Positions 17,350-60,402 of a stretch of 64,000 nt of DNA are shown here, in pieces. The notes under the pieces were generated by a model that saw only the letters and a program-made list of their open reading frames with translations, had not been told where the DNA came from and did not search any database. Every line of letters starts with the position of its first letter. The first letter of the stretch is position 1. Origin of the DNA: Bradyrhizobium jicamae (GTDB lineage: Bacteria > Pseudomonadota > Alphaproteobacteria > Rhizobiales > Xanthobacteraceae); NCBI RefSeq assembly GCF_001440395.1, contig NZ_LLXZ01000096.1, forward strand, positions 1-64,000. Direction: 5' to 3'. The translations under genes and the position numbers were made by a program.

Positions 17350-17354
17350 CGCGC

Positions 17355-37502: not shown

Positions 37503-37607
37503 CGAAAATCTCCAGAGAAAATCGGTGATGTAAGGGGCAGCACCCTGGTGGCGAGGACACCGTTAAGCTGCCTTGCCTGCCCTTTGATGAAGCTGTTTTT
37601 TTGCGGC

Positions 37608-38486
37608 TCAGCTCCCGAAGCGCGGCTCCGGGATGCCCTTGACGCTTAGCCCCGTGATTGCAAACAGGGCACCGCGCTGCTGGCCGTCATCGGGGAAGCG
37701 TGGCAAGGGTGGCTTCGCCATGGACGTCACGTATAGAATGTCGAGGTTGGGACCGCCGAACATCACGCTCGTGACCTTGCGCACCGGCATCTCAATAATG
37801 CGGTCAACGCTGCCGTCCGGCGCGTAACGCACGAGCTTACCATCGTAGACGAGCGCCTGCCATAGGAAGCCTTCTGCATCGACGGTAGCGCCGTCCGCGG
37901 CACCGCCGTTCGAACGATCCACTGTCGCGAAACGGCGCCGCTTCGTCGCAGCACCGGTCTCGATTTCATAGTCGTAGGCCCAGATCTCTCCCGTCCAGGT
38001 GTCGGCGAAATAGAAGGTCCGGTCGTCCGGGCTCCAGCACGGGCCATTGGAGACGATGATCTTCTCATCCAAGACGTGGAGCGAGAGATCGGGATCGAGC
38101 CGATAGAGACGGCCGGAGGCCTCGTCTTCCAGCGTATCCATGGAGCCAAATAGGAAACGTCCGCGGCGATCGACTTTACCGTCATTCAGGCGATTGCGCG
38201 GCAAATGTGTCTCGGGTGTCGCGATCGGCGTCAGGACGCCACTCTCCAGATCGAGATCATGCACGCCCGATTGGAGCGCAACGAGCGCGTGCATACCGTC
38301 GCGCCGCAGCGCCATCGAGCCGATCTTCGCCCCGACATCCCAGGCGCGAAGCTCGCGTCCATCTGCGGTCGCGCGAAAAACGCGGCCATCAATGCTGTCT
38401 AGCCAGTACAGACGCTGCTGCTCGACGTCCCAAAGCGGGCCTTCGCCAAGCGTCGTCTTCAGATCCGCTACGATCTCGATCTGCAA
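37608..38486 (-). CDS. SMP-30/gluconolactonase/LRE-family hydrolase
   Basis: 292 residues, six-bladed beta-propeller. Metal and active-site residues: Glu15 in TLGEGPLW, Asn101-Asp102 in RLNDGK, Asn147 in VSNGPCWS and the Asp in the GATVDAEGFLW region. These enzymes open sugar or related lactones. Cytosolic (no signal). Between SDR2 and BKACE, it fits a dehydrogenase-lactonase-cleavage sequence. LRE relatives can also act as regulators or drug-hydrolysing enzymes, so the lactone is inferred. Confidence 0.88.
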   Translation of the reverse strand: MQIEIVADLKTTLGEGPLWDVEQQRLYWLDSIDGRVFRATADGRELRAWDVGAKIGSMALRRDGMHALVALQSGVHDLDLESGVLTPIATPETHLPRNRLNDGKVDRRGRFLFGSMDTLEDEASGRLYRLDPDLSLHVLDEKIIVSNGPCWSPDDRTFYFADTWTGEIWAYDYEIETGAATKRRRFATVDRSNGGAADGATVDAEGFLWQALVYDGKLVRYAPDGSVDRIIEMPVRKVTSVMFGGPNLDILYVTSMAKPPLPRFPDDGQQRGALFAITGLSVKGIPEPRFGS

Positions 38487-38508
38487 GTCACCCCCCCGTT
38501 CTTACGGT

Positions 38509-39297
38509 TCATAAATATTCCACGTTCCCGTCAATGCTGATCGCCTGGCCGGTCACGTTGCGTCCACCTGGCGAACAGAGGAATAGGGCCATCGCCGCAA
38601 CGTCTTCGGCCGTCACCATGCGACGCAGTGAGATCTTCTTGAGGTATTCTTGGCGCATCGTGTCATAACTGGTACCTAGCTGCTCGGCGCGCGCGCGGAT
38701 CACGCCTTCGATGCGCGGACCCTCGACGATGCCCGGCAAAAGCGCGTTTACGCGGATGTCCTCGGGACCGAGTTCGGCGGCGAGCGATTTGACGAGCCCG
38801 ACAATGGCCCATTTCGTTGCGGCATAGGGGGTACGCCAAGCATAGCCGAGCCGGCCGGCAACGGAGGCCATGCAGAGGACTTGCCCATGGCGCGATTGGC
38901 GGAGCATTGGTACTGCGTGAGAGGCGAAGCGGTACTGCGCGTTGAGGTTGATATCAATTGTTTGCTGCCAGTCAGATTCTGCAATAGCGTCGATTCCGCC
39001 GGTCGGTCCTGCAATGCCCGCATTGTTGATAAGCACATCGAGACCGCTCCAACGCGCAGCCTGCGCGCGAAATAGGGTGGCTACCGCCTCGCGATCTGAC
39101 ACGTCGGCCTTGGTGGCAAGCACCTGTGGATGCTGATCGCGGAAGTCTGCAAGCGCATCCTCGTTGATGTCGCAGATATGCACGTGCGCACCCGCCTCAA
39201 CGAAGGCACGGGCAAGTGCGGCGCCAATGCCGGACGCGCCCGCCGAGATCAGGACGCGCAGCTCGGGATAAGGCACAAGACGCTGCAACACGCTCAT
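38509..39297 (-). CDS. Short-chain dehydrogenase/reductase (SDR) 2
   Basis: 262 residues from ATG 39297, which overlaps the GntR 2 stop by four bases (ATGA); the longer frame to 39615 lies inside gntR and is rejected. Cofactor motif SAGASGIG (18-25, with Ala for the usual Thr/Gly pattern), NNAG at 91-94, catalytic Ser145, Tyr158, Lys162 (YAATK), C-terminal VTGQAISIDGN. An Asp at the end of beta-2 (ICDIN) favours NAD. Likely oxidises a hydroxyl to a ketone or lactone upstream of the SMP-30 enzyme. Confidence 0.9.
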   Translation of the reverse strand: MSVLQRLVPYPELRVLISAGASGIGAALARAFVEAGAHVHICDINEDALADFRDQHPQVLATKADVSDREAVATLFRAQAARWSGLDVLINNAGIAGPTGGIDAIAESDWQQTIDINLNAQYRFASHAVPMLRQSRHGQVLCMASVAGRLGYAWRTPYAATKWAIVGLVKSLAAELGPEDIRVNALLPGIVEGPRIEGVIRARAEQLGTSYDTMRQEYLKKISLRRMVTAEDVAAMALFLCSPGGRNVTGQAISIDGNVEYL

Positions 39298-40034
39298 GTT
39301 GATATATCTTTGCGCCTGCGCCTTGGAGCAGCAACGGAACGCTCCTTGGCCGCTTTGTCCAGAAGGCGAGACAGGCAATTGGCCGCCTGCATGATGTCGT
39401 CGGTCACGGCCGCGCGGGCGGCGGGGGTGTCGCGGTCCAGCAGAGCATCGAGGATCCGGCGGTGCGCGTCCATGGAACGCTGCAGGTGGGCAGCGTCGGG
39501 CGCCACGAGTACGAAGCAGGGACCAATGAGCAGCCAAAAATTCTCGACGGCACCGAGAATCATCGGCGCCTGCGCGATCTGGTAGATCCGCCGGTGAAAA
39601 GCGAAGTTCATCCACAGATAAGCGGACCCATCCACTGCGTCAGCGGCTACCTGAAGGCGACCGTAGAGCTGCGTGACCTCTGCATCGTCGACGCGCGTCA
39701 TGCGCGAGGCTGCGCGCTCAGCCAGCAGCCCCTCCAGCGCCACCCGCGCATCGCGCACATCCCGCAGCTGCGGCTCGGATAGCTGGCCCACGCTGAACCG
39801 CGCCGTACCGCTGAATTCGAAGGCCCCTTCGGCCTGCAGGCGGCGGAGCGCCTCGTCCACCGGCATCGGGCTCGAGCCCAGCGCCTCGGCAAGGCCGCGG
39901 ATTGTCAGCCTCTGGCCCGGCGCAAAACGGCCGGCCATCAGACCATCTCTCAAATGCCGGTAAACCTGATCCTTCACCGCCTCCTGGGCGACCGACGGCG
40001 ATGGCGGCAAAGTAATAACGTTGTGCAATTTCAA
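39294..40034 (-). CDS. GntR-family (FCD-type) regulator 2
   Basis: 246 residues from TTG 40034. Same domain plan as the regulator at 34790 and almost the same sequence in the DNA-binding part (RFAPGQRLTIRGLAEALGSS identical), so both should bind the same operator. One difference in the recognition region is PVDEALRRL here against PVREALRRL there. The arginine in that position is usual in GntR proteins, so this copy may bind DNA more weakly. First gene of the GntR2-SDR2-SMP30-BKACE run; operator at 40047-40060. Confidence 0.9.
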   Translation of the reverse strand: MKLHNVITLPPSPSVAQEAVKDQVYRHLRDGLMAGRFAPGQRLTIRGLAEALGSSPMPVDEALRRLQAEGAFEFSGTARFSVGQLSEPQLRDVRDARVALEGLLAERAASRMTRVDDAEVTQLYGRLQVAADAVDGSAYLWMNFAFHRRIYQIAQAPMILGAVENFWLLIGPCFVLVAPDAAHLQRSMDAHRRILDALLDRDTPAARAAVTDDIMQAANCLSRLLDKAAKERSVAAPRRRRKDIST

Positions 40035-40046
40035 GGCCCCTTTGGA

Positions 40047-40060
40047 TATGTGATCACATA
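40047..40060. promoter_or_regulatory. GntR operator, site 2
   Basis: TATGTGATCACATA, a perfect 14-bp palindrome 12 bases upstream of the GntR 2 start codon. Best copy of the three sites. Confidence 0.75.
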
Positions 40061-40238
40061 AGAAGCGTCAAGAGTCGCCTCGATGGGTGGTCTATCTGGC
40101 TCACCGAAATTCCGAGCCGCGCGGTGTGGGCAGCGGGCCCGGTGTTGTCGAACGGCTCGGCTTGAGCTTGACGATTCAGAGCGCCGAGAGCCTGCAGCAG
40201 CAATGAGCCTCGGACCGAAGGCAATAGGGTTAGAGGTT

Positions 40239-41153
40239 TCACGCATCAAGCAGTTCGTTCGATGACAGCTGTAGGATTTCGACCGCGTGCAGGCCGTCCA
40301 CCAGGGCCCGGTACTGCGGTCGCGCCGCGACCGTGGCGGCAACGAGTTTCTTTCCCGGGCCAATTTCGCCGGCGCGGATCAGCAGCACGCCCTTCCAGAA
40401 CGTTGGCTCGGGGTCAGCTCCGATCAGTGCCTGAGCGTCCGTGAGCGTACGCAGTGCCTCCGCAAGCTGCGGACCTGTCGCTACCGCAGCGCGCGAGAGC
40501 AGCCCGGGTGTGAAGACAGACGCACCGAAGATCGTGTGTGCCTGACAGAGCTTAGCGAGCCTTCGCAATTCGACGAGCGGGGCCGGATGGTCGTCGACTC
40601 GCACATCGATGCCCCGGTTGCTCCAAAGCGCTGGACCGGCGTCGGCCGACACCACAAGGAGCGCGGCCGACATCCGGCCACGGGCGTCACCGCCGGCGGC
40701 CTCACCTGCATCCATGGCCGCCAGCATACGGTCGACGAGTGGGCCGGCAGTGTTCTCGTACGCTGCGAGCATGGCAGAAACGACGTCGTCGCTGGCGAGC
40801 ATATTTCCCAGCACCACAACGTTATTGGCCTGAAGTTGAGCACGATACGGAACGCAGCGATCGCCAGTAAACATGGCTTTGCCGCCGGCGGCATCGAGGA
40901 AGGCGACCTGGCGCAGTTCTCGGTCGGCGTCCTTTGCGAGCAGACTCGCGAGCGCCGACTCCGCCGATGCGCCTGAAGCCATGAGGTCTAGCCCATTCGG
41001 CCCGTACGCTGGATCGACGAAGGACTGGGTCGCAACTGCACCAACGCCGGCTCGCGCAAACGTCACAACGCGCCCGAGTGCAAAATAATGCGACTGGCTT
41101 GCCACACCCAACTGGCCGGTGATTGCGTCTCTGGCGACGATCGAGCACGTCAT
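40239..41153 (-). CDS. DUF1028 protein (Ntn-hydrolase-like)
   Basis: 304 residues. MTCSIVARDAITGQLGVASQ followed by YFALGRVVTFARAGVGAVATQ, the AYGPNGLDLMASG stretch and GDRCVPYRAQLQANN are hallmarks of DUF1028, a family with an Ntn-type fold often found with amidohydrolase or peptide-utilisation genes. Function not established; an amide or lactam hydrolase is plausible. The start lies 2 bases after the stop of the alpha/beta hydrolase, so they are co-translated. Normal length includes a C-terminal extension of about 80 residues. Confidence 0.85.
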   Translation of the reverse strand: MTCSIVARDAITGQLGVASQSHYFALGRVVTFARAGVGAVATQSFVDPAYGPNGLDLMASGASAESALASLLAKDADRELRQVAFLDAAGGKAMFTGDRCVPYRAQLQANNVVVLGNMLASDDVVSAMLAAYENTAGPLVDRMLAAMDAGEAAGGDARGRMSAALLVVSADAGPALWSNRGIDVRVDDHPAPLVELRRLAKLCQAHTIFGASVFTPGLLSRAAVATGPQLAEALRTLTDAQALIGADPEPTFWKGVLLIRAGEIGPGKKLVAATVAARPQYRALVDGLHAVEILQLSSNELLDA

Positions 41154-41155
41154 GT

Positions 41156-41941
41156 TCAGACCTCAACATGTTTGAGGTGCGCCTTGATCGCCGCGATCAA
41201 AGTCGGCGGATCTTCCAGCATCGGCAAATGACCGATGCCTGGCAGGAGAACGTGTGGAGCATGCAGCATGGCTGCCATTTCGGCGCCGGCCGCGGGAGGG
41301 CAGGTAAGGTCGAACTCGCCGGTCAGAACCGTCACAGGACAGCTTACGCTAGCAACCTGGGCCCTGATATCTGCCGCGCAGGCGGCCCGCCACACCCGAC
41401 GGATGTCGTCCTTGCCGTTGGGATTGCGCAATGCCATGGTCTTGGCCACCACCTCGGCGGATGCGTATGGACCGAGGGCGTATTTCGGCAGGACGAGCTC
41501 AAACATCTCGGTGACGGTGTGATGCTCAAGGGTGGATAGCACCGCCGCATTGTCGGGATCCTTCGAGTAGAGCTGGCTGCCTACCGCAACAGCCGAGATG
41601 ACCCGATCCGGCTCGGCGGCTGCGAGATAGACCGAGATCGCCCCGCCGAGCGAACCGCCGATGGCGTGAAAGCGACCGACGCCCGCCCGGTCGACGGCGT
41701 CGATGCAGTCCTGCGCCCACCTTGCAAGGTCGTAGTGCTCGGCCGGTGGCGAGTCACCGAATCCACGCATGTCAGGGACAATCGCGAACCGGTCAGCGAA
41801 CGCCGGTACGATCTCGGCCCACGCCGCACCCCGGAGATTGATGGGATGCACGAACAGAAGCGGCGACCTGCTCGCGTCCATCTCGCCATGGTAAGAGACG
41901 GCAATCGTACCGACCGGTCGTTTGATAGTAAGCCGCCTCAT
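41156..41941 (-). CDS. Alpha/beta-fold hydrolase
   Basis: 261 residues from ATG 41941 (GGAGGAG 6-12 bases upstream; the longer frame to 42067 is rejected). Catalytic triad Ser97 in GGSLGG, Asp211 in TGEFDL and His238 in GIGHLP; oxyanion region LLFVHPINLRG. Similar in type to 3-oxoadipate enol-lactonase and C-C or ester hydrolases of ring-cleavage pathways. Cytosolic. Middle of the ORF98-SnoaL-hydrolase-DUF1028 run behind operator site 3. Confidence 0.9.
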   Translation of the reverse strand: MRRLTIKRPVGTIAVSYHGEMDASRSPLLFVHPINLRGAAWAEIVPAFADRFAIVPDMRGFGDSPPAEHYDLARWAQDCIDAVDRAGVGRFHAIGGSLGGAISVYLAAAEPDRVISAVAVGSQLYSKDPDNAAVLSTLEHHTVTEMFELVLPKYALGPYASAEVVAKTMALRNPNGKDDIRRVWRAACAADIRAQVASVSCPVTVLTGEFDLTCPPAAGAEMAAMLHAPHVLLPGIGHLPMLEDPPTLIAAIKAHLKHVEV

Positions 41942-42130
41942 AAATTCTCCTCCACGGGCACGACGTCCCAAACGACCGCAAGGACGCTCAAATGCGGCTC
42001 GTTCGTCGATTCCAACGAACGCTCGAGCATGTGCCCATCCGCCTTCTCGCGCGCGCGGCGGGCACATGGAACAGCAGCTTCCGCTGGAAAATCTGTTCTG
42101 ATCTCCTTGCAGACAGGCTGGTTGCCTGGG

Positions 42131-42640
42131 CTATGGCTTTTGGTCGTCCGTGACCGAGAAGCTCTTGCCAAAACTGGGCGGCAGATAGCCGACGCCGCGC
42201 GAGGCATAGCTATCGCCGAACGGCTGCCGGACCTTATCTTTTGGCGCCATCTCCGAGCAGTGGAAGTGCCAGATCTTCCACTCCGGCTTTCCGTCTCCGT
42301 CATTACGCACGTAGATCTCCGTGCTGCGCAGGTACTGTTCCGGTTTCTCGACGGTCTCGAAGTTGCCTTCGCAAAGCAGGTAAGCCATGTCTCCGTGCAC
42401 ATCCAGACGCCAGATGTGCATGACCGCGGGTTTCGATCGCGGCGTGTCCTTGAACCACTCCCAGAAGGCGGTAAGCTCTTCCCGCCCGAAGTACGGATCA
42501 CCGCTCAGGTTGAAATTCAAGAATGCGGTCCCACTCGGGAAGCAGGTTCGCATCAAGGGGATATCCCACTTGTAATTGGCGACCCACCAGTTGCGGTGCG
42601 CTTTCAAAATGGCTGCTCGGTCCTCATCTACAGTCGGCAT
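42131..42640 (-). CDS. SnoaL/NTF2-like protein
   Basis: 169 residues. NTF2-like cone fold: VDEDRAAILKAHRNWWVANY, GREELTAFWEWF, VMHIWRLDVHGDMAYLLCEG, EWKIWHFHCSEM. Such proteins are small-molecule isomerases, cyclases, dehydratases or non-catalytic binders. The C-terminal 35 residues extend beyond the usual domain. A role on the same intermediate as the neighbouring hydrolase is inferred. Confidence 0.8.
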   Translation of the reverse strand: MPTVDEDRAAILKAHRNWWVANYKWDIPLMRTCFPSGTAFLNFNLSGDPYFGREELTAFWEWFKDTPRSKPAVMHIWRLDVHGDMAYLLCEGNFETVEKPEQYLRSTEIYVRNDGDGKPEWKIWHFHCSEMAPKDKVRQPFGDSYASRGVGYLPPSFGKSFSVTDDQKP

Positions 42641-43203: not shown

Positions 43204-45663
43204 CTAGGTCATTTCAACAGCCTTGTTACGGGGCTCGGGTACGCCTGCCCCATCGCGGCGGTCGTCCAGTCCAGTAACAATCGGCTTCAGCTCAGGAGGG
43301 TTCAACGAAGCGACATAGCGATCATCCGCAACATCGCCATAGACCGTCGTACGTTGGCGCGGCAGGCGTGCCATGTCGCGGATAAGCTCTTCCACTTGCT
43401 TCGGAGGCATTTCGTGGCCGTGCTGGGCACCGGCTGAACGCGAGATCGTTTCATCCATCAACGTGCCGCCGAGATCGTTCACGCCGGCATCAAGGCAGGC
43501 GCGGATGCCGTTTTCCCCAAGCTTCACCCACGACGCCTGGATGTTGGAGATCATGCCGTGGAATACGAGCCGTCCGATCGCATGCATGAGAACGACCTCG
43601 CGAAACGTCGGTCCCTTGCGCGAGCGCCCCTTCAAATAGATCGGTGCTTCCATATGGACGAACGGCAATGGGACAAATTCAGTGAAGCCGCCGGTGTCGG
43701 CCTGAAGATTTCTGATGTGCAAGAGATGCTTCGCCCAATGCTCGTAACGATCAACATGGCCGAACATGATGGTTGCGGTGCTGCGCAATCCGGCTCGATG
43801 CGCCGCTCCCATGATCTCCAGCCACTGCGCCGTGTTGATCTTGTCGGGACACAGAATAGCGCGGACCTCGTCATCCAGGATTTCCGCGGCTGTCCCGGGC
43901 AATGTGCCAAGACCGACTTCCTTCAACTTGCGAAGAAATTCATCGACCGAAATCCGGAGCGTCTTCGCACCCTGGAATACCTCGAGCGGCGAAAAGGCAT
44001 GGACATGCATCTCGGGCGTGAACTGCTTTACCGTCCGGCAAATCTCAAGGTACTTCGCGCCGGTATAAGACGGATGGATCCCACCCTGCATGCAAACTTC
44101 GGTCGCGCCGCGCTCCCAAGCTTCGCGCGCGCGACGCCCGATCTCGTCCATCGAAATATCGTAGGGCCGCCCTCGGAGATTCTCCGCGAGTTTGCCCTTG
44201 GAAAACGCACAGAACTGGCACCTGAAGTAGCAGATATTGGTGTAATTGATGTTGCGGTTGACGACATAGCTGACGGTATCGCCGTTGACGTCGCGGCGCA
44301 GCTCGTCGGCGGCGCGGCACACGGCTGTGAAATCGCGCTCCTCGGCCTCGAACAGGGAAACTATCTCTGCTTCGTCAAGTTGTGTCCCCGATTGAGCCCT
44401 TGTGACAATTCTCCCAACGGGGCTGATGATGGCAGGCATCTTAATTTCTTCATACAGGATCGCAAGGTCGCCGGCAGGCGGGTCGCACCTCGCCCCCGGG
44501 CACCACTCGTCCAAACGTGGCCAGCCGTTTCCATCGATGAGCCGCAGCAAGGTTTGCTGCAGCGATCTGTCAGACCAGCGTGCATATTGACGCGCATAGG
44601 AAGGATAAACTGCGAGACGCTCGACGAGCTTCTTGCCGCATGCGGCGGTGGCCTCCGCAAGACGTGCGAGATGCGGCCAAGGCGCCTCGGGATTGACATG
44701 GTCCGGCGTGACTGGGGAAACGCCGCCCCAGTCATTGATGCCAGCGGCTACGATCATGTCGAGTACGCCCGGGCTGAGATTGGGCGGAGCCTGGATGTTC
44801 ATATCGGGCCGGAACAGCAATCGCGCCAATGCAATGGTCCAGAGATGCTCTTCAAGCGCCGGCGCCGGCGCATGTCTCATCCGGGTATTCGGCTTCGGCT
44901 TGAAGTTCTGGATAATGATCTCTTGAATATGCCCGTAGCGTTCGTCCAGATTGCGCAATGCCAACAGCGACGAGATGCGCTCAAGCGGCGTCTCGCCGAT
45001 ACCGACAAGCAATCCAGTCGTAAAAGGCACAGCAAGCTGGCCGGCGAGTTCAATCGTCCACAGCCGCCTTGCCGGATCTTTGTCGGGCGAACCGAAATGC
45101 GGTCCTCCAGGCTCGCACAGCCGCGCGGATGCACTTTCGAGCATAATTCCTTGCGAGATGGAAACCGTCCGCAAGGCTGCGATATCATCGGCTTCCATCA
45201 AGCCCGGATTGAGATGGGGCAGCAGGCCCGTCTCGCGGAAAACGACTTGTGCAGCTTTTTTGAGATAAGCGAGCGTCGTTGCAAAGCCCATCTCGTGCAG
45301 CTCGTTCGCCGCATGGCGGTACCGCAGCTCAGGCTTGTCGCCCAGCGTAAACAGCGCCTCTTTGCATCCAGCGTCACGACCGGCTTGCGCGATCGCGAGC
45401 ACCTCATCGATGGTGAGGTAGGCGCGTTGCCCTTTGCGAGGCGCATGGGCGAATGTGCAGTAATGGCAGACATCCCGGCATAGCTGCGTAAGCGGAATGA
45501 AGACTTTTCGCGAATAGGAGATTTTTCTGCCGTGGAGCTCATCCCGCGTACTTGCCGCCATCCTCATCATATCGGAATGAGATACATCACGGACGAGGGA
45601 CAAGACCTCGGAGGCCGAAATATCGCTTCGCCTAAGCGAATCCTGAAGCATCCGATTTGTCAT
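43204..45663 (-). CDS. fbiC: FO synthase, fused CofG-CofH (FbiC)
   Basis: 819 residues. Two radical-SAM domains in one chain: CofG part with CRDVCHYC (Cys62, Cys66, Cys69) and CofH part with CYFRCQFC (Cys478, Cys482, Cys485), the CX3CX2C clusters. Together they make the deazaflavin FO from tyrosine and the pyrimidine 5-amino-6-ribitylaminouracil. Further landmarks: FTLGDKPELRY, NDWGGVSPVTPDHVNPE, GGIHPSYTG, GTAAEILDDEVR. The fused form is typical of bacteria. ATG 45663 has GAGGAG upstream. Last gene of the F420 operon, 43 bases after cofC. Confidence 0.96.
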   Translation of the reverse strand: MTNRMLQDSLRRSDISASEVLSLVRDVSHSDMMRMAASTRDELHGRKISYSRKVFIPLTQLCRDVCHYCTFAHAPRKGQRAYLTIDEVLAIAQAGRDAGCKEALFTLGDKPELRYRHAANELHEMGFATTLAYLKKAAQVVFRETGLLPHLNPGLMEADDIAALRTVSISQGIMLESASARLCEPGGPHFGSPDKDPARRLWTIELAGQLAVPFTTGLLVGIGETPLERISSLLALRNLDERYGHIQEIIIQNFKPKPNTRMRHAPAPALEEHLWTIALARLLFRPDMNIQAPPNLSPGVLDMIVAAGINDWGGVSPVTPDHVNPEAPWPHLARLAEATAACGKKLVERLAVYPSYARQYARWSDRSLQQTLLRLIDGNGWPRLDEWCPGARCDPPAGDLAILYEEIKMPAIISPVGRIVTRAQSGTQLDEAEIVSLFEAEERDFTAVCRAADELRRDVNGDTVSYVVNRNINYTNICYFRCQFCAFSKGKLAENLRGRPYDISMDEIGRRAREAWERGATEVCMQGGIHPSYTGAKYLEICRTVKQFTPEMHVHAFSPLEVFQGAKTLRISVDEFLRKLKEVGLGTLPGTAAEILDDEVRAILCPDKINTAQWLEIMGAAHRAGLRSTATIMFGHVDRYEHWAKHLLHIRNLQADTGGFTEFVPLPFVHMEAPIYLKGRSRKGPTFREVVLMHAIGRLVFHGMISNIQASWVKLGENGIRACLDAGVNDLGGTLMDETISRSAGAQHGHEMPPKQVEELIRDMARLPRQRTTVYGDVADDRYVASLNPPELKPIVTGLDDRRDGAGVPEPRNKAVEMT

Positions 45664-45706
45664 CGTCAGAACTCCTCATGCTCCGCTATGCACGGCGGAG
45701 CTCCCA

Positions 45707-46444
45707 TCACTTTGCGCAACTGACCTCGAACTCACTTCTGATTGCCGCATCAACGATCGAGCGACCGCTTTGTCCAGCACCTCCGCCGCGTCGCCTTTCC
45801 GCCAAATTGATCGAACGTAGATAGCAATCCGTCGCGGTGGAAGTGTTCAGGTCAAGAAACTCAAACAGATCGCCGGGACGATCCAGATCAAGCCCAATCC
45901 TTGCATTGCGGGACACGATGGGCTTAATGCCAATGCGGTTTGCAGCGGCGATGTGGCGGGCAAAGCTATTAGGGCCGAAACATGGTGCGAATAAGCCTGC
46001 CAAGCTTGACGCAAGCGCGTTTGTGCCACCATCGCGCGTCGCCCGCACGAGGACGGCGCGACCGCGCCCCGCAGCGTCCAAGAGAGCTGAAACATCCTCG
46101 CTCAAGATTGCTGGCACATCGCTCGGCAGAGCGATGACAAGCCGGCCTCCACGGTTTTCGACCTCAGCGAGCCCCGCCGTTATTGCCTCGTTCGTTCCGT
46201 TCGCGCCGGCGTCATCAATGACCACAGCACCTAAATGGGCTGCTTCTCGTGCTACATCGTCTGCGCCGGTGACGACAGCGACTTTCTTCGATCTCGGCGC
46301 GCTGCATGCCGCCTTAAGAACATCGGCCAGCATCGTTCGTGCCAATGTGGCGCGCTCGGACGTGGTCAAAAATGGTGAGAGCCGCTGCTTTGCGCACAAG
46401 AATGTCTTCGCCGGGACAATCACCCATGCATCCGGACTGGTCAC
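45707..46444 (-). CDS. cofC: 2-phospholactate-type guanylyltransferase CofC
   Basis: 245 residues. Nucleotidyltransferase fold: VIVPAKTFLCAKQRLSPFL, VVTGADDVAREA, NEAITAGL, LVIALPSDVPAI, RATRDGGTNALASS, and GLDLDRPGDLFEFL. It activates phospholactate, phosphoenolpyruvate or 3-phosphoglycerate with GTP for transfer to FO by CofD; which acid is used cannot be told by eye. The C-terminus carries about 40 residues beyond the usual end. The start overlaps the cofD stop by four bases. Confidence 0.92.
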   Translation of the reverse strand: MTSPDAWVIVPAKTFLCAKQRLSPFLTTSERATLARTMLADVLKAACSAPRSKKVAVVTGADDVAREAAHLGAVVIDDAGANGTNEAITAGLAEVENRGGRLVIALPSDVPAILSEDVSALLDAAGRGRAVLVRATRDGGTNALASSLAGLFAPCFGPNSFARHIAAANRIGIKPIVSRNARIGLDLDRPGDLFEFLDLNTSTATDCYLRSINLAERRRGGGAGQSGRSIVDAAIRSEFEVSCAK

Positions 46445-47451
46445 GGTGCGCCTCCGCTCGAGGGTCGTCTTTCCTGCCGGTTGCGCTTTGTTCGAAGGCT
46501 CTCGCCGAAGACAAGCGCATGCTCCGCGAGGGTGATTTTTGATTGCAAGTCTGTCATCAGCGTAGGTGCTACATGCACATCGATCCCCAGGTCGGCAGCC
46601 CCTGCGGCATCCGTCGTATCTATGACCAAGCCATCGATCAGCCCGGCGTAATGTCTCGAAATCTCTCCATTTGTCGCCTGCAGGCCGAGTTCGTCCATTA
46701 TCTTTCGCGTCGGCCCCTTGATTGCCTGGCCGCCGATAATTGGGGAAATGGCGATGACAGGAACACGGGCCGCGCGCAACTTTTCAGTTGCTCCTGGAAC
46801 AGCCAGGATCGGATCAATGCTGAGATAGGGGTTGGAGGGACCTACGATGATGAGGCCGAGATCCTCAGCATCGAGTGACTGAAGCACCTCCTCTGTCATA
46901 CGGGCGCTTTCCGCACCTCTGAACCGGATCTGCTTGACAGCTGGCTCGCAGCGACGCCCAACAAAATAGCGCTGGAATTCGAGTTCACCTTCCGTACTTA
47001 CAACGATTGTGGAAAGCTTGTCGTTGGTTATCGGCAGCACGTTTGAACGAATGCCGAATCGACGTGCAACATCGATCGCAATGGCCGTGAGACTCTCACC
47101 GCTTAACCGGCGGCGGGTCCGCTCCACATGCATTGCCATGTCGCGATCGCCGAGCAAGAACCACGTCTCGCCCCCAATTTCCTTCAAAGCCTCCATGAAG
47201 TTCCAACTCTCATCGGAGCGACCCCAACCACGTCGCGGGTCGCTCAAACCACCGAGCGTATAAAGAACTGTATCCAGGTCAGGGGAGATATTGAGCCCGA
47301 GATGCTCGAAATCGTCGGCGACATTGACGATGACGGTCAGACGTTCTCCAAGGACGTGCTGCAAACCGAGGGCAAGCTTTGCCCCTCCGACGCCCCCGCA
47401 GAGCGCCACCACACGGCCTTCCTGAGACAGATGATGCGACCGTCCGTTCAT
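46441..47451 (-). CDS. cofD: 2-phospho-L-lactate transferase CofD
   Basis: 336 residues. N-terminal VVALCGGVGGAKLALGL (binding of the phospholactyl-GDP-type donor), VNVADDFEHLGLNISPDLDT, NFMEALKEIGG, FLLGDRDMAMHV, LPITNDKLSTIV, GPSNPYLSIDPIL, and SPIIGGQAIKGPT. It makes F420-0 (or dehydro-F420-0) from FO and the CofC product. Full length for CofD/FbiA. Overlaps cofE by four bases. Confidence 0.95.
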   Translation of the reverse strand: MNGRSHHLSQEGRVVALCGGVGGAKLALGLQHVLGERLTVIVNVADDFEHLGLNISPDLDTVLYTLGGLSDPRRGWGRSDESWNFMEALKEIGGETWFLLGDRDMAMHVERTRRRLSGESLTAIAIDVARRFGIRSNVLPITNDKLSTIVVSTEGELEFQRYFVGRRCEPAVKQIRFRGAESARMTEEVLQSLDAEDLGLIIVGPSNPYLSIDPILAVPGATEKLRAARVPVIAISPIIGGQAIKGPTRKIMDELGLQATNGEISRHYAGLIDGLVIDTTDAAGAADLGIDVHVAPTLMTDLQSKITLAEHALVFGESLRTKRNRQERRPSSGGAP

Positions 47452-48212
47452 CTGAACAGATCCTGTTCTTTCGGACGCACAAGAGCCGATGCAGCGTTGA
47501 TCCGCGCAGGAGACGAGAATCCGCGGACGTGGACGACGGGTTGGCCTTCGGCGGCCTGCCCCATCAAAAGCGAGGCAGCAGCTGCCAGTTCATCTGCCAC
47601 GGCGATCTCCGTCACCTGCATTGGCCGTCCAAACAGATCGGGCTTGCCGATTATGCTCTGAAGCGCAGGCAGCCCAGCAGTTCCGAGCGCCACGCCAACG
47701 ACACCGTTGCGCCAAGGACGGCCGAAGCTATCGTTCACGAGAACTCCGACATTTACACCGAAATGTCGATCGAGCCCGGCCTTCAGACGTTCGCAACTGT
47801 CATCGGGGTTTTCTGGCAGCAACAACACGCGATGGCCGCGATCCTGCTCGATATTGGATTCATCAATTCCCGCATTCGCCATCACGAACCCAAGGCGGTG
47901 GGCAACGATCATCACATTCTGCCTTGAGCGGATGATCTCGCTTGATTCCGAGAGCACCACCTCGATGTGTCGGGGATCTTTGCCGACCGTTTTTGCAAGT
48001 TCCAAGGCCCGGTCGGAAGGGCTCACGTCATCAAGATAGACGTATCTATTTTCTGCCTTCGAGACGATTTTCTGTGCAACGACAAAGACATCACCTGAGG
48101 CGACGGCGATTTCTGCCCGGGTAACGCCATCCGCAATGATACGAACCAGATCGTCGTCCGGCCCCACGCGAGGGATCCCGGGAAGGGCAGTATAAGTGAT
48201 GCTCCTAGTCAT
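47448..48212 (-). CDS. cofE: F420-0:gamma-glutamyl ligase CofE
   Basis: 254 residues. GDVFVVAQKIVSKAENR, SRQNVMIVAHRLGFVMANAGIDE-type region, LVNDSFGRPWRNGVVGVALG and EIAVADELAAAASLLMGQ are CofE signatures. It adds glutamates to F420-0 with GTP and metal. Stand-alone like archaeal CofE; the C-terminal FMN/nitroreductase domain of actinobacterial FbiB is absent. First gene of cofE-cofD-cofC-fbiC; GAAGGAAGG upstream of ATG 48212. The 273-base gap to the Lrp gene may hold a separate promoter. Confidence 0.95.
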   Translation of the reverse strand: MTRSITYTALPGIPRVGPDDDLVRIIADGVTRAEIAVASGDVFVVAQKIVSKAENRYVYLDDVSPSDRALELAKTVGKDPRHIEVVLSESSEIIRSRQNVMIVAHRLGFVMANAGIDESNIEQDRGHRVLLLPENPDDSCERLKAGLDRHFGVNVGVLVNDSFGRPWRNGVVGVALGTAGLPALQSIIGKPDLFGRPMQVTEIAVADELAAAASLLMGQAAEGQPVVHVRGFSSPARINAASALVRPKEQDLFR

Positions 48213-48485: not shown

Positions 48486-48995
48486 CTAGCCTCGAAGCGC
48501 CGCAGGAGAAATCGATCGCTTCACGACGGTGCGCATTGCGAAGCTGGATTGCAGTCTCGCCACACCTGGCAGCCGCGACAGGTGTTGCCTATGGATACGT
48601 TCGTAGTCCTCCATGTCACGTGCTAGCACTTCAAGCCGATAATCGTCCGTACCAGACATGAGGTGGCACGAGACGACGTCGGGGCACTTCTGGATTTCAG
48701 TCTCGAAAACCGTAAGAGCATCCTCGCTTTGGCGATTAAGCGTGATGTGAACGATCACCGTCAGCGGAAAGCCAAGCGAAGTTGCATCGATGTCGGCTGA
48801 GTAACCTCTGATGATGCCGGCTTTCTCCAATTGCAGCACGCGTCTTGCGCAGGAGGTCGCTGAGAGGCCGACCCGTTCGGACAGCGCCAACTGGCTTTTT
48901 CGGGCATCCTGAATGAGTTCACGCAAGATTTTACGGTCGAGAGGATCGAGGGCTGTGAGCATCGTGGCGAACGCCCATGTCGTTGTTCCGTTCAC
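48486..48995 (-). CDS. Lrp/AsnC-family regulator of the F420 region
   Basis: 169 residues from GTG 48995, which overlaps the npdG stop by four bases (GTGA); ATG 48962 is an alternative. Winged helix (LDPLDRKILRELIQDARKSQ, VGLSATSCARRVLQLEKAGI) and RAM domain (LTVIVHITLNRQ, VVSCHLMSGTDDYRLEVLARD). Placed between npdG and the cof operon, so it probably controls one of them or itself in response to an amino-acid-like ligand. Confidence 0.9.
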   Translation of the reverse strand: MNGTTTWAFATMLTALDPLDRKILRELIQDARKSQLALSERVGLSATSCARRVLQLEKAGIIRGYSADIDATSLGFPLTVIVHITLNRQSEDALTVFETEIQKCPDVVSCHLMSGTDDYRLEVLARDMEDYERIHRQHLSRLPGVARLQSSFAMRTVVKRSISPAALRG

Positions 48996-49654
48996 GTCAG
49001 GCCGGAAATCGAGATTCCGGCGCCCTTCACTTTGTATTTGCGGTTAATCGCGATCAGGACAGAGGTAAGAGCCTCGGCTGCGGCCGAGTTCGCAAGCGCA
49101 CCGCCATCGATGCCGCGATTGCTCACAGCATCCGCCAGCAGCATCACCTCCTTGCGAGCATCGGGGTCATCGCTGAACACGAGGACGTCGCAGTCCGCCT
49201 TGCCTCCGGCATGAAGCTTCTGCGAGCCGACATTGTGGAAGGCGCCGACAACCCGCGAGCTCGGATCAAGCAGCGATTTCGCGATCAGAGCTGCCGAACC
49301 GGCACTCGGGAGTTGAACGACAGACACCTTTGGCGGCACGAGCGGCACGACCGCAGTGACGACGATCTTGCTCTTGGCAGCATCCTTGATCTCGGCGAGG
49401 CTTGCTTCATAATTGGAGAAAGGCACGGCAACGACGACAATGTCGCTCTTCGCAGCGGCGGCAGGATTAGTATCTCCGCTGATATTGCCGAACCCTTCCG
49501 ACCTCAGCAGCGAGACGGCATCCTGAGCGCGCTCAATTGAGCGCGATCCAAGAATAACGGAGTATCCGGCGCGACTCCAGCTGCGGGCAAGGCCAGATCC
49601 GAGATCGCCGGTGCCGCCGACGATTGACAAAATAAGACGGGTAGCGTTCGACAT
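48992..49654 (-). CDS. npdG: F420H2:NADP oxidoreductase NpdG
   Basis: 220 residues from ATG 49654 with AAGGTG upstream (the longer frame to 49759 is rejected). N-terminal Rossmann IVGGTGDLGSGLA, then VILGSRSIERAQDA, SDIVVVAVPFSNYEASL, VVTAVVPLVPP, VVGAFHNVGSQKL and the C-terminal GIDGGALANSAAAEALTSVL, all diagnostic of the NpdG/Fno family. It transfers hydride between NADPH and F420, giving the F420H2 needed by the two LLM enzymes. Conserved with F420 genes in bacteria. Confidence 0.93.
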   Translation of the reverse strand: MSNATRLILSIVGGTGDLGSGLARSWSRAGYSVILGSRSIERAQDAVSLLRSEGFGNISGDTNPAAAAKSDIVVVAVPFSNYEASLAEIKDAAKSKIVVTAVVPLVPPKVSVVQLPSAGSAALIAKSLLDPSSRVVGAFHNVGSQKLHAGGKADCDVLVFSDDPDARKEVMLLADAVSNRGIDGGALANSAAAEALTSVLIAINRKYKVKGAGISISGLT

Positions 49655-49843
49655 ATGGATTACACCTTCTTTGCTTGCGGCATGACGTCTTCCGCGAAAA
49701 TCTGCTTTGCTCGACTGTGGCGATATCACACCGGTACTCAACGGGTGAGTGGCTGCCACACCTTCACGCGCACAGGCGGTTCAAAACGGGATCGCCGGCA
49801 GGTCCATGATATCGAGTCCCTCCTGGGCAAAAGGATTTCAATG

Positions 49844-50077
49844 CTAGCCGCCCTCAAGATATGGAAAGAAGTTGAGCTCGGCACCGTCTTTGACTTCGGC
49901 GGACAAGGGCACCACCATGTCGCCAATCGACGCCAGCCAGACCTCGTGCTCAGCGCTCAAGGAGTCGATTACGTTGATGACCGTCGTTCCGTCAGGCAGG
50001 TCAAGCTGAATGGATCCAACTCCGTCGGGCAAGAACCGGCGGAGATTTCCATGCATATTGACCTCGACGCGGATCAT
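49844..50077 (-). CDS. MoaD/ThiS-like ubiquitin-fold sulfur carrier
   Basis: 77 residues. Beta-grasp pattern VEVNMHGNLRRFLPDG, LDLPDGTTVINVIDSL, then VVPLSAEVKDGAELNFFPYL and a C-terminal Gly-Gly, the thiocarboxylate end. It overlaps the molybdenum hydroxylase large subunit by four bases, so it is probably dedicated to that enzyme (cofactor synthesis or sulfuration) or is a sulfur donor in the pathway. No partner E1-like gene (MoeB/ThiF) is in the window. Confidence 0.85.
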   Translation of the reverse strand: MIRVEVNMHGNLRRFLPDGVGSIQLDLPDGTTVINVIDSLSAEHEVWLASIGDMVVPLSAEVKDGAELNFFPYLEGG

Positions 50078-52347
50078 GACTGTTGCACTCGTAAAGCCGC
50101 GGCAATCTTTTCAGCTGTCATGGGCAGCGAATTCGGCCAACAGCCCGTCGCCGCTGCGATCGCATTGCCGATTGCCGCCGGAGGCTCGATGCAGGGTGGC
50201 TCGCCGACCCCTTTGGCGCCGTAAGGACCAGCAGCCGAGCGGCATTCGACGATGATGCTCTCGATCTCCGGGACATCCATCGCTGTTGGCATCTTGTAGT
50301 CGGTCAGGTTCGCATTCATGACACGACCATCCTGATAAACAATCTCTTCCGACAGCGCCTGGCCGATACCTTGTGCCACTCCGCCCTCGATTTGGCCCTC
50401 GATATAGGTTGGGTTGATCGCATAGCCTACGTCCTGCGCCACCACATAACGGTTGATAGTCACCTTTCCGGTCGCTTGATCGACCGACAGGTCGACGGCA
50501 TGCGCGTGATAGCTTGGAGTATTCCAGACCGGGAGCGGATGATTCTGAACGCGCGTTGGGTCATAGGGCGGCGCGGGCGAAATGGCCGTGCCATGCGCGA
50601 TGAGTCCACCGCCTGCAAGACGCGAGATCCGCGCCAGTTCCGCAATCGAAATCGACTTGTTGCCGGCAATTACATGCTTGTCTTGCAGACTCATACCCTC
50701 AATCGGCGCATCGAGCTGCTTGGCCGCAAGTTCAAACATCTGACGCCGTAACTCGGCGGCGGCCGCAAGGCACGCATTTCCGACCGAAAACGCAGTACGG
50801 CTCCCCTGAGCGCCGTAGTCAAATGGCGCGGCTTGGGTGTCCACACCAGTCGCATTGACGTCGGTGAGATCAAGCGACAGCTCCTCGGCCAAGATTTGCG
50901 CGGCTCCGGTGATGGCGCCCGTGCCGATTTCGACGGCGCCGCTCACCAGGGTGGCTGTTCCGTCCGGGTTGATCTTTACGTAGACACCGGACGAACCACC
51001 CGTCGTCATCCACCAGCTGCAAGCAATGCCCTTGCCGCGTCCCGGCTCCGGCTTGCGATCGTGCCAGCCGATCGCATTCGCCGCCTTGCGCAGGCATTCC
51101 TCGATGCTCACCGACTTGTGGATTTCGCCAGAAGGACCTGGGTCGCCTTCCTTAACGACGTTCCGCAGGCGAATTTCGAGAGGATCCAATCCGAGATCCT
51201 TCGCGATCATGTCCATCTGGCATTCCATGGCGAAGTTTGCCATCGGGCCAGCAGGGGCGCGGAAAGAGCCCGAATGAACCTTGTTCGTGTAGACGGCGAT
51301 GCCTTCCAGCTCGAGCGCGCCGGTTTTGTAAGGACCTGCCATCACTTGGAGCGAGATTGCAGCTGTGCCCGGCCCCGAGCCCGCATAGGCGCCGCAATCC
51401 ACGATGATCTTGCCGCTTCGCGCCAAGAGGTGCCCGTCCTTGTCGACACCCGTCTTAACCAGAACAACGGAGGCCTGCCGGGGCAGCGCGGCTGTAAGCT
51501 CTTCCTCGCTCGTCGACATAACCTTGATCGGGCGCGCGGTCTTTCGCGCCAAAAGAGCGGCAAAGTGCTCGACGCCGATTCTGAGCTTGCCGCCGAACCC
51601 GCCGCCGATACCAGGCACGGTGACGCGGACGCGCGCGGATGGGAGATCTAGGATTTCGGCCAACGTATTTTGGGTATCGAACGGCAATTGCGTGTTACAC
51701 CATACCGTCACGTTACCATTTGCGTCCCAGTCGGCGGTCGCGACGCGGGGCTCGGTGTATCCGGGATGCTGCAAAGCCGTTGTGAACCGATGCTCGTAGA
51801 CCTTGTAAGATTTTGCGAACGCCGCCTCGACATCACCGACACGGATACGCGCTTGGCCTGCGATATTGCCGCTTCTCGCAATGATCGGGAGCGCTTTGTA
51901 GGTTTCCCAATTTGGATGGATGCGGATATTGCTATTGAGAGCCTCTTCCGGGTCGAACAGCGTCGGCAAATTTTCGTATTCGACCTCAATGGCCTCGAGC
52001 GCACGCTCGGCAATCTCGAGCGAAGTCGCGGCAACGGCTGCAATCGCATGTCCCACAAACAGAACGCGATCGACTGCGAACACGGTCGTGTCGCGTACGG
52101 CCGTCCCGTAACGAATCGCCGGTATGTCGGCCGACGTGATGATACCCCGCACGCCATGAATTGATGCAGCTCGTGAGGTATCGATCTTTTTGATGAGCGC
52201 GTGCGCTCGAGGACTGCGTAGAACCTTGCCATAGAGCATGCCAGGCAGCTTGAAGTCCGCGGCATAAACGTGCTTTCCCGTGACTTTGCCGACGCCATCG
52301 AGGCGGGGGAGTCGACGACCGGCGACGCTATGATTCTGTGCGTTCAT
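50074..52347 (-). CDS. Xanthine dehydrogenase-family molybdopterin large subunit
   Basis: 757 residues from ATG 52347, overlapping the small-subunit stop by four bases (ATGA). Landmarks: RLDGVGKVTGKHVYAADFKL, GIGGGFGGKLRIGVEH, SGSFRAPAGPMANFAMECQM, VSGAVEIGTGAITGAAQIL, YGAQGSRTAF, VAQDVGYAINP, and the catalytic glutamate Glu716 in GVGEPP. It hydroxylates a (hetero)aromatic ring or aldehyde with water. The CO dehydrogenase motif AYxCSFR is absent (FRAPAGP here), so it is not form I CODH. Similar in plan to nicotinate, isoquinoline or carnitine-type hydroxylases; substrate unknown. Confidence 0.92.
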   Translation of the reverse strand: MNAQNHSVAGRRLPRLDGVGKVTGKHVYAADFKLPGMLYGKVLRSPRAHALIKKIDTSRAASIHGVRGIITSADIPAIRYGTAVRDTTVFAVDRVLFVGHAIAAVAATSLEIAERALEAIEVEYENLPTLFDPEEALNSNIRIHPNWETYKALPIIARSGNIAGQARIRVGDVEAAFAKSYKVYEHRFTTALQHPGYTEPRVATADWDANGNVTVWCNTQLPFDTQNTLAEILDLPSARVRVTVPGIGGGFGGKLRIGVEHFAALLARKTARPIKVMSTSEEELTAALPRQASVVLVKTGVDKDGHLLARSGKIIVDCGAYAGSGPGTAAISLQVMAGPYKTGALELEGIAVYTNKVHSGSFRAPAGPMANFAMECQMDMIAKDLGLDPLEIRLRNVVKEGDPGPSGEIHKSVSIEECLRKAANAIGWHDRKPEPGRGKGIACSWWMTTGGSSGVYVKINPDGTATLVSGAVEIGTGAITGAAQILAEELSLDLTDVNATGVDTQAAPFDYGAQGSRTAFSVGNACLAAAAELRRQMFELAAKQLDAPIEGMSLQDKHVIAGNKSISIAELARISRLAGGGLIAHGTAISPAPPYDPTRVQNHPLPVWNTPSYHAHAVDLSVDQATGKVTINRYVVAQDVGYAINPTYIEGQIEGGVAQGIGQALSEEIVYQDGRVMNANLTDYKMPTAMDVPEIESIIVECRSAAGPYGAKGVGEPPCIEPPAAIGNAIAAATGCWPNSLPMTAEKIAAALRVQQS

Positions 52348-52838
52348 TGGCTGCCTCCCGAGATTGCCATGCGTTCTGCCGCGGTGGCCACCGCGTCGAT
52401 GATCTTGCTGTAGCCCGTACAACGGCACAGGGTGCCAGCGATTGCTTCCCTGATTTCGTCCCGCGAGGGCCGACTGCCGGGATTTTCATCGAGGAACGAC
52501 TTTGCAGTCAGAATCATTCCGGGAATGCAATAGCCGCACTGCACGGCACCGCACTCGATGAATGTCTGCTGCAGCGGATGCAGATGCTCGGGATCGCCGA
52601 TGCCTTCGATTGTGGTGATCGAGCATCCCTCGACCTGGCCCGCGAGCAGGATGCAGGAATTTACTGCCTTTCCGTCAAGCAGTACCGTACAGACGCCGCA
52701 CTCGGCTTCGAGGCAGTTCTCCTTGGTCCCCATCATGCCGATCTCGTTTCGCAAAACCTGTAGCAGGGTCCAATGGGGCTCGATGAGCACCTGGTGGCTT
52801 TCGCCGTTGACAACAATGTTGAGGATCTTCCGGTTCAT
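52344..52838 (-). CDS. Molybdenum hydroxylase [2Fe-2S] small subunit
   Basis: 164 residues. Plant-type cluster Cys42, Cys47, Cys50, Cys62 (ENCLEAECGVCTV, NSC) and the second all-helical cluster Cys101, Cys104, Cys138, Cys140 (QCGYC, LCRC). It passes electrons from the Mo site to the FAD subunit. The EAECG spacer replaces the common xxGxCG, still C-x4-C-x2-C. Overlaps its neighbours by four bases each way. Confidence 0.95.
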   Translation of the reverse strand: MNRKILNIVVNGESHQVLIEPHWTLLQVLRNEIGMMGTKENCLEAECGVCTVLLDGKAVNSCILLAGQVEGCSITTIEGIGDPEHLHPLQQTFIECGAVQCGYCIPGMILTAKSFLDENPGSRPSRDEIREAIAGTLCRCTGYSKIIDAVATAAERMAISGGSQ

Positions 52839-53710
52839 CGGCGTTCTTCCCCAGTTCGCTCAAAACAAGCCGTTAGCGCGCGCTCGACCATGATCGAAAC
52901 AAGCCGGCGGCGATAGTCGGCCGAGGCGCGGACGTCAGAGATAGGCGCACACTCTTCGGCAGCGAGCTTTCCGGCCTCGGCAAAGCTGGTTTGGTCGGCA
53001 AGCTGGCCCTCCAGATAGGCCTCGGCCGCTTTCGCCCGGAACACCTTCGGGGCGGCGGCGCCGATAGCCAATCGAACTGAAGCGCAGCGCGAGCCGCCGG
53101 CCTCGAGCGTCAAACAGGCAGCGACACAAACGACGGAAATCTCCATCGCTCGCCGGCGTCCTTCCTTCACGAAGGCAGTCGCGGACCTGGCGGGAAGTTT
53201 GGCAAGTCGGATGCTGGTCACGATCTCCACCGGCAACAGACTGGTTTTTCCCGGGCCAACGATGAAGTCCTGCAAGGGAACAGAGCGGCTTCCGTTCGGG
53301 CCTGTGATGTCGAGCACGGCATCGAGCGCGAGCAAAACGGGCACAAAGTCGGCGGCCGGCGATGCGTTAACGATATTGCCGCCGATGGTTGCAATGTTCT
53401 GGACCTGACGTCCGCCAATCACGCTCGCGGCCTCGATGAGCGCCCGAAGGCTGCCCGCAAACGCAGGGTGCGTTTCGATAGTGTGGTACTTGGTCAATGC
53501 GCCGAGCGTGAACTCGTCTGACGTCTCGGCGATACCCGACAAGCCCGGCAGGCAAGCGACATCGATCAAATGCGAGGGATCGATTTTCTTGCGATTGATT
53601 TGGATCACTATGTCACTCCCACCGGCAATAAAGCGTGCTGTCGGAAACAACCGTTGAGCAAGATCGACGGCTTCAGTGACCGTCGCAGGCCGATGAAAAT
53701 CAAAGCTCAT
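52835..53710 (-). CDS. Molybdenum hydroxylase FAD-binding medium subunit
   Basis: 291 residues from ATG 53710, overlapping the LLM 2 stop by four bases; the frame to 53746 is rejected. FDFHRPATVTEAVDLAQRL, the FAD loop RFIAGGSDIVIQI, ASVIGGRQVQNIATIGGNIVNASPAADF-type flavin-binding segments and VRLAIGAAAPK. Standard length for the CoxM/XdhA-like subunit. The order medium-small-large is the usual one for bacterial ring hydroxylases. Confidence 0.95.
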   Translation of the reverse strand: MSFDFHRPATVTEAVDLAQRLFPTARFIAGGSDIVIQINRKKIDPSHLIDVACLPGLSGIAETSDEFTLGALTKYHTIETHPAFAGSLRALIEAASVIGGRQVQNIATIGGNIVNASPAADFVPVLLALDAVLDITGPNGSRSVPLQDFIVGPGKTSLLPVEIVTSIRLAKLPARSATAFVKEGRRRAMEISVVCVAACLTLEAGGSRCASVRLAIGAAAPKVFRAKAAEAYLEGQLADQTSFAEAGKLAAEECAPISDVRASADYRRRLVSIMVERALTACFERTGEERR

Positions 53711-57768: not shown

Positions 57769-57814
57769 GTATGCCTCCAACCCCAAACGCCTGGGGCGAT
57801 AAACGACTGGTAGC

Positions 57815-60366: not shown

Positions 60367-60402
60367 GCGCACCAAATTTCTTTGGGACGGGAGAGCTCTC
60401 CA

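Follow-up and report, generated by a model that had tools for sequence, protein, structure and literature searches.

What purpose does the cofactor F420 serve in a Bradyrhizobium? The question is raised by a cofE-cofD-cofC-fbiC operon in Bradyrhizobium jicamae, on contig NZ_LLXZ01000096.1, positions 1-64,000 (this whole stretch of 64,000 nucleotides (nt) is called the window below). We propose, with a probability of roughly 0.6, that the cell makes F420 locally for a catabolic pathway whose genes lie in the same island as the operon. This reading builds on what the sequences show: the identity, order and overlaps of the genes; the conservation of the block; the presence of its catabolic part beside two different cof cassettes; and the near-confinement of homologues of one island protein, the luciferase-family (LLM) oxidoreductase LLM1, to genomes that encode CofD. 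The four biosynthetic genes are as follows.

43204..45663, minus strand: fbiC (fused cofG-cofH, FO synthase), 819 residues, two CX3CX2C clusters; NF006687, 1155 bits (cut-off 1018).
45707..46444, minus strand: cofC/fbiD, guanylyltransferase, 245 residues, GTG start; TIGR03552, 143 bits (cut-off 105).
46441..47451, minus strand: cofD/fbiA, transferase, 336 residues; TIGR01819, 279 bits (cut-off 257).
47448..48212, minus strand: cofE, glutamate ligase, 254 residues, without a fused FbiB C-terminal domain; TIGR01916, 272 bits (cut-off 181).

The cofE/cofD and cofD/cofC junctions are 4-nt overlaps (ATGA and GTGA, respectively), and 43 nt separate cofC from fbiC; an earlier reading of the DNA letters by a model (the sequence-only reading) had given the operon's position, both overlaps and the gap exactly to the base. 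All four reading frames are open, and all four products exceed their NCBIfam curated (equivalog) cut-offs. The diagnostic motifs that the same reading had reported were seen again: the CX3CX2C motifs of FbiC begin at residues 62 and 478, the DD...PDLDT region of CofD has its aspartates preserved in alignments to the sequences of 6uvx and 3c3d, and CofC retains K13 and the Gly-Pro-x-Ser pocket when aligned to 7p97 and 6bwg. Passages of a 2021 review assign the CofD aspartates a metal-related role (PMC8498797). The four proteins are 68-89% identical across eight other Bradyrhizobium genomes that share this locus type (type A), which marks them as products of conserved genes rather than of chance open reading frames (ORFs). 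The genome (8.73 Mb, 235 contigs) encodes a single CofD. Scans for promoters and terminators near the operon yielded about as much as shuffled sequence. The description of a complete F420 operon in an alphaproteobacterium thus stands, with Bradyrhizobium sequences as the closest relatives and a gene for the NADPH-dependent F420 reductase FNO also adjacent. It is a confirmed F420 biosynthesis operon, and judging from its genes the bacterium very probably produces the cofactor.

Taken alone, the operon is ordinary. It resembles known proteobacterial F420 operons (fbiC-cofC-cofD-cofE with npdG) in its enzymes, its fused FbiC, its stand-alone CofE and the FNO close by, and differs from them in its setting, a catabolic-type island that also encodes a molybdenum (Mo) hydroxylase and an LLM protein resembling Mer. 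The sequence-only reading had ended at the operon edges, whereas the operon belongs, as one module, to a conserved same-strand island of about 22 kb, which runs on the minus strand from 58609 down to 36570. Its other genes are listed here in island order, the operon lying between the AsnC-family gene and the downstream part; a divergent importer adjoins the upstream end.

58741..63268, plus strand: divergent oligopeptide-type ABC importer, comprising solute-binding protein, two permeases and ATPase (the first two genes match PF00496 and PF00528; the last two were identified without a Pfam scan).
57815..58609, minus strand: IclR-family regulator (PF01614, PF09339).
56692..57891, minus strand: S-methyl-thiohydantoin-desulfurase-like (DUF917) protein (PF06032, PF20906); likely start near 57768.
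55112..56695, minus strand: hydantoinase/oxoprolinase A-type (HyuA) protein (PF05378, PF01968); nearest solved relatives N-methylhydantoinase and 5-oxoprolinase.
54810..55130, minus strand: HapK/REDY-like small protein (PF11639).
53707..54747, minus strand: LLM1, Mer-like luciferase-family oxidoreductase, probable F420H2-dependent reductase (PF00296).
52835..53746, minus strand: Mo-hydroxylase FAD subunit (PF00941, PF03450); likely start near 53710.
52344..52838, minus strand: Mo-hydroxylase 2Fe-2S subunit (PF01799, PF00111).
50074..52428, minus strand: Mo-hydroxylase large subunit (PF01315, PF02738, PF20256); nearest solved 1rm6 and 7dqx; likely start near 52347.
49844..50077, minus strand: ThiS/MoaD-like small protein (PF02597).
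48992..49759, minus strand: npdG/fno, NADPH-dependent F420 reductase (TIGR01915, 174 bits, cut-off 150); likely true start an internal ATG near 49654.
48486..48995, minus strand: Lrp/AsnC-family regulator (PF01037, PF13412).
36570..42640, minus strand: downstream conserved part, with SnoaL-like protein, alpha/beta hydrolase, DUF1028, GntR, SDR, SMP-30 lactonase and, at 36570-37502, BKACE (NF053538, 3,5-dioxohexanoate:acetyl-CoA acetone transferase, 512 bits, cut-off 430).

Overlaps of 4 nt join LLM1 to the FAD subunit, the FAD to the 2Fe-2S subunit, the 2Fe-2S to the large subunit and the large subunit to the ThiS-like protein, with two starts re-read at internal ATGs. The FNO is the sole TIGR01915 copy over the cut-off in the genome. 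Gene order from HyuA to SMP-30 is kept in the eight other type A genomes, and all 18 island proteins compared are present in each of them at 68-96% identity; the genes from SnoaL to SMP-30 occur in 8/8 stretches (GntR left out of the count), and a small ORF, w57, in six of the eight at 54-60% identity. The stretches compared span HyuA to SMP-30, BKACE lying mostly beyond them. The position of BKACE near the island end may hint at a later pathway step.

Catabolic genes of this kind next to cof genes were seen again in G636, a genome of the same class (Alphaproteobacteria) and a different order. G636 carries the block at 66% (IclR), 80% (DUF917), 76% (HyuA), 82% (HapK), 77% (LLM1), 63% (FAD), 79% (FeS), 74% (large subunit) and 62% (ThiS) identity to the window, adjoined by 76-82% identical counterparts of the four importer genes, and directly after it come cofE, cofD and cofC that are only 49, 52 and 30% identical to those of the window. 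Conversely, the cofE, cofD and cofC of another locus, L006, are 76, 68 and 57% identical to the window's, yet the catabolic block differs: the stretch holds no DUF917, HyuA or HapK match, and only distant LLM and Mo matches (29-35%). In the CofD phylogeny, a comparison that the sequence-only reading had suggested, the window falls among Bradyrhizobiaceae/Xanthobacteraceae-type cassettes, apart from the few rows included from Actinobacteria and Archaea, and G636 falls with G559, a member of its own family; the AU test, on 40 of 132 rows, rejected a single clade of type A and G636 CofD (p 5e-8). One catabolic block therefore adjoins two different F420 cassettes. A weaker core in the same order occurs elsewhere in G636 and in G559 (DUF917-like 28-31%, LLM1 49-51%, FAD 43-44%, FeS 60-62%, large subunit 53-56%); these stretches hold no cof matches, and both genomes have CofD.

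The fold by itself is insufficient to tell F420 from flavin mononucleotide (FMN) as the cofactor of an LLM protein. The best solved relatives of LLM1 are F420-dependent Mer enzymes (122-191 bits), followed by a 'luciferase family protein' (80 bits) and by hydroxymycolate dehydrogenase, one Fgd and Adf (58-64 bits), as against 39 bits for the best FMN-dependent alkanesulfonate monooxygenase. Its distribution points the same way. Homologues of LLM1 (E <= 1e-30) occur in 24 of 385 sampled alphaproteobacterial genomes, and 23 of these 24 encode CofD, against a base rate of 62/385 (Fisher p 2e-19); the lone genome lacking CofD, G519, is 63% complete, and two LLM1 genomes of the same genus, G289 and G421, have it. 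By contrast, DUF917 homologues (E <= 1e-60) occur in 23/385 genomes, six of them with CofD (Fisher p 0.15), the differing E thresholds making this a contrast and not a matched control. Within Bradyrhizobium, nine of 265 genomes hold an orthologue of LLM1 (E <= 1e-100, with 88-100% identity for the best match), all nine among the 42 that encode CofD; these nine represent one locus type and are not independent. From its relatives and its distribution, LLM1 is likely to use F420. It is not a true Mer (methylene-tetrahydromethanopterin reductase): although these are its closest solved relatives, it scores below the Mer cut-offs (TIGR03555, 218 bits against 348.7; 229 against 276 in the second comparison) and is linked to a Mo hydroxylase.

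Several observations weigh against a cofactor made for the island. LLM1 stays under the cut-off of every F420-LLM family shown, 229 bits against 276 being its best, so that FMN use is compatible with its sequence. Since the LLM family includes FMN enzymes, LLM1 could be an FMN-dependent monooxygenase and the catabolic block unrelated to F420, their linkage being due to hitch-hiking; the Mer-like relatives and the co-occurrence with CofD speak against this, and we regard it as quite improbable. The sampled genomes are related, however, and the Fisher value therefore overstates their independence. The re-pairing of block and cassette is a single case, and the G636 block stretches contain no FNO match. 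A gap of 273 nt separates the AsnC-family gene from cofE, so cofEDC-fbiC may be its own transcription unit. Among 97 F420 loci fetched (40 from Bradyrhizobium and 57 from the class sample), only 22 have a Mo large subunit and a cyclic-amide-type gene near the cof genes, a count for which there is no random-region baseline; 20 of them are Bradyrhizobium loci (8 of type A, 12 of type B) and two are class loci. In type B (12/40 loci), Mo hydroxylase, LamB/YcsF and FNO accompany cofEDC-fbiC, with a solute-binding protein in 11/12, and only one of the 12 stretches yielded an LLM. The fetched stretches of plasmid F420 loci from two Paraburkholderia, Aromatoleum and Paracoccus alcaliphilus contain neither a Mo hydroxylase of the xanthine dehydrogenase type nor such a cyclic amidase. 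The low frequency of the pairing and these plasmid loci imply that many F420 loci serve other pathways.

Such counts also bear on the possibility that this is a general-purpose F420 operon serving many LLM proteins of the genome, for which the neighbourhood is merely a convenient landing site. The search for F420 users in the genome covered PF00296, FNO and PF04075. It returned 20 PF00296 matches, a point in favour of such an operon, and no match to the FDOR family PF04075, where the same search also matched none of 14 controls. A second Mer-like oxidoreductase, 57% identical to LLM1, lies in the window:

31542..32600, minus strand: LLM2.

Elsewhere in the class, F420 loci mostly have other neighbours: in the 57 class loci we counted FNO in 43, an LLM in 35 and cyclic-amide-type genes in six, four of these without a Mo hydroxylase. 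We had also considered that F420 loci might generally be accompanied by a Mo hydroxylase, which is unsupported class-wide (6/57, the narrower and the wider query set giving the same count). Against a general-purpose operon stand the adjacency of the catabolic block to two different cof cassettes and the tracking of CofD by LLM1 homologues; moreover, only 42 of 265 Bradyrhizobium genomes (41 over the cut-off) have CofD, so the cofactor has no housekeeping role in Bradyrhizobium. We consider such an operon unlikely. DUF917 loci of other genomes (n = 16) have a Mo hydroxylase in one case and neither LLM nor FNO in any; ten of the 16 genomes lie in the class sample, and three of these ten have CofD elsewhere. 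Loci that come closer to the island do occur. That of Mesorhizobium sp. 61-13 holds hydantoinase B, Mo hydroxylase, LLM, FNO, cofEDC and fbiC, and plasmids of Agrobacterium rubi and Variovorax PBL-E5 carry cof genes and an LLM with PxpA or other amide hydrolases and ABC genes, Mo hydroxylase not being among their listed genes.

If F420 is indeed made for the island, what might the pathway do? In the scheme that we infer from sequence, for F420 production and its use by LLM1 as for the order of steps, the direction of the Mo reaction and the substrate, the ABC importer would take up the substrate, the products of cofE, cofD, cofC and fbiC would make F420, and FNO would reduce it with NADPH. LLM1 would then reduce an intermediate with F420H2, this intermediate being formed, or next used, by the translationally coupled Mo hydroxylase, and the cyclic amide or hydantoin-like ring so formed would be the target of the HyuA-type and DUF917 proteins. 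In the chemistry we judge likeliest, an N-heterocycle would undergo Mo-dependent hydroxylation, and its ring would then be reduced by low-potential hydride and opened by hydrolysis. That LLM1 and the Mo enzyme share one catabolic pathway seems to us more probable than the scheme as a whole, while an N-heterocycle opened as a cyclic amide is a tentative choice of substrate, at slightly less than even odds. Among solved proteins, the alpha subunit of 4-hydroxybenzoyl-CoA reductase comes closest to the Mo large subunit (391 bits), followed by 6-hydroxypseudooxynicotine dehydrogenase (267 bits); the Mo step could therefore be reductive, a further point against the proposed role. For the FAD and FeS subunits, families of xanthine or glyceraldehyde dehydrogenase give higher scores. 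Neither 4-hydroxybenzoyl-CoA reductase itself (alpha 547 against 995, beta 123 against 405, gamma 154 against 258 bits) nor CO dehydrogenase was accepted as the identity of the enzyme, all scores being under the cut-offs. Likewise, the DUF917 protein is under the curated cut-offs of both desulfurases (NF058532, 112 against 450 bits).

The nearest precedent for the logic of the island is found in Chloroflexota, whose uric-acid clusters are predicted, in passages of a 2025 study, to combine Xdh and ring hydrolases with a PF00296 reductase that depends on F420 (PMC12507026). The island shares with that reductive pathway an Xdh-type Mo enzyme, ring hydrolases, one of them encoded by a gene also named HyuA, and a PF00296 reductase with putative F420 dependence, and could thus encode a uric-acid or purine-type reductive pathway as in E. 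coli and Chloroflexota; in those passages, the F420 variant is named for Chloroflexota only (PMC12507026). No SsnA-like amidohydrolase was found among those island ORFs that were scanned and annotated. The HyuA-type protein of the window, with PF05378 and PF01968, presumably belongs to another family than the HyuA of that pathway (IPR011778). On this evidence a uric-acid or purine-type pathway is highly improbable here.

No title describing this island appeared among the open-licence full-text matches listed for rhizobial or Mo-linked F420 catabolism, and as of 2021, according to passages of the review, no F420-using enzyme from bacteria outside Actinobacteria had been tested (PMC8498797). The island offers specific candidate users (LLM1, LLM2 and FNO), a partner enzyme and a Bradyrhizobium gene cluster, which makes the role of F420 in Proteobacteria directly testable, and it suggests what F420 may be for in such soil bacteria.

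A comparable locus lies on pSymA of Sinorhizobium meliloti. In strain R28 it comprises a dihydroorotase-like gene, a branched-chain-type ABC importer, FNO, cofD, cofC, fbiC and a CoA-transferase, followed by a TIGR03619 LLM, an ArgE-type deacylase, PntAB and a Mo hydroxylase, with cofE between FNO and cofD; strain GR4 carries it (on pRmeGR4c) at 99% identity over 24.7 kb. The R28 cofE (L260, 13775-14540) is split across two frames and is a single open frame in GR4, which may reflect a sequencing error or a strain without working CofE. The pSymA-type locus resembles the island in its cof genes, FNO, LLM, Mo hydroxylase, ABC importer and cyclic-amidohydrolase-type gene, and differs from it in an LLM of another subfamily (TIGR03619, 190 bits, cut-off 167), a dihydroorotase-like gene instead of HyuA/DUF917, and the additional PntAB and CoA-transferase.

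Passages of a genome-wide study report S. meliloti k-mers associated with nodule competitiveness, GR4 being among the competitive strains (PMC8407117). Twelve of the functions listed there have counterparts in the pSymA locus (CofD, CofE, FbiD, dihydroorotase, LivF, PntA, PntB, the Mo subunit of 'caffeine dehydrogenase', GctA, GctB, an F420-type LLM and a deacylase), and many others listed have none (helicase, sugar transport, catalase and others). The authors name an fbi operon and call its role worth attention; one single locus is not described in these passages (PMC8407117). The relation of the pSymA locus to competitiveness is an association, which does not amount to a cause, and the locus might explain in metabolic terms those associations that the study, in the same passages, left without an assigned role. 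A broader proposition, which we regard as doubtful, is that rhizobial F420 is a pathway-private cofactor, that cof genes travel with swappable modules (aerobic Mo hydroxylase, F420H2-dependent LLM and cyclic amidase) that dearomatise and open N-heterocycles, and that in S. meliloti a single such locus lies behind the competitiveness associations.

The cofactor's tail acid can be addressed through CofC, in which the motif FGPNSFARH places a Gly where 3-phosphoglycerate (3-PG)-using enzymes carry Ser162. According to passages on Mycetohabitans, Ser or Thr at position 162 is diagnostic of the 3PG-F420 subtype (PMC8764529), and we rejected this variant for the window. The same passages state that CofC assays were unable to separate 2-phospholactate from phosphoenolpyruvate (PEP) as the in-vivo substrate (PMC8764529). 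The tail acid is probably one of these two rather than 3-phosphoglycerate. Were it PEP, the reductase would be without a candidate, since the best genome match to the FbiB C-terminal domain reaches 37.8 bits against a cut-off of 249.6. No close FbiE was found either: the best genome match to the nitroreductase encoded near cofC in the T. roseum F420 locus, which we assumed to be FbiE, reaches 40 bits and 29% identity.

Among Alphaproteobacteria, F420 has been reported before and is moderately common. The sequence-only reading had called proteobacterial operons fewer and thought to be acquired. They are not rare, with CofD in 62/385 genomes of the class sample (58 over the cut-off) besides the Bradyrhizobium count given above, and with F420 production reported for Oligotropha and Paracoccus in passages of the review (PMC8498797). 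Acquisition would fit the patchy distribution and the several cassette types within one genus. The CofD relatives at 86-88% identity are from Bradyrhizobium valentinum, retamae, hereditatis and sp. sGM-13. Three Bradyrhizobium loci (L080, L081 and L084) each show two separate FbiC matches, suggesting unfused cofG and cofH, so that several cassette types exist side by side in the genus. In Bradyrhizobium G018, three CofD genes exceed the cut-off, each in an F420 locus of its own (L078, L095 and L096), and in L093 (G207) the CofD frame holds one internal TAG, possibly marking a decaying F420 locus.

Two further features of the window were noted. At 16600-19198, about 31 kb from the Mo hydroxylase, an SBP_bac_11-family solute-binding protein and an ABC ATPase with TOBE may form a molybdate importer, which is a guess, and at 2590-3957 one ORF fuses a transposase helix-turn-helix with a serine beta-lactamase-family domain (PF00144).

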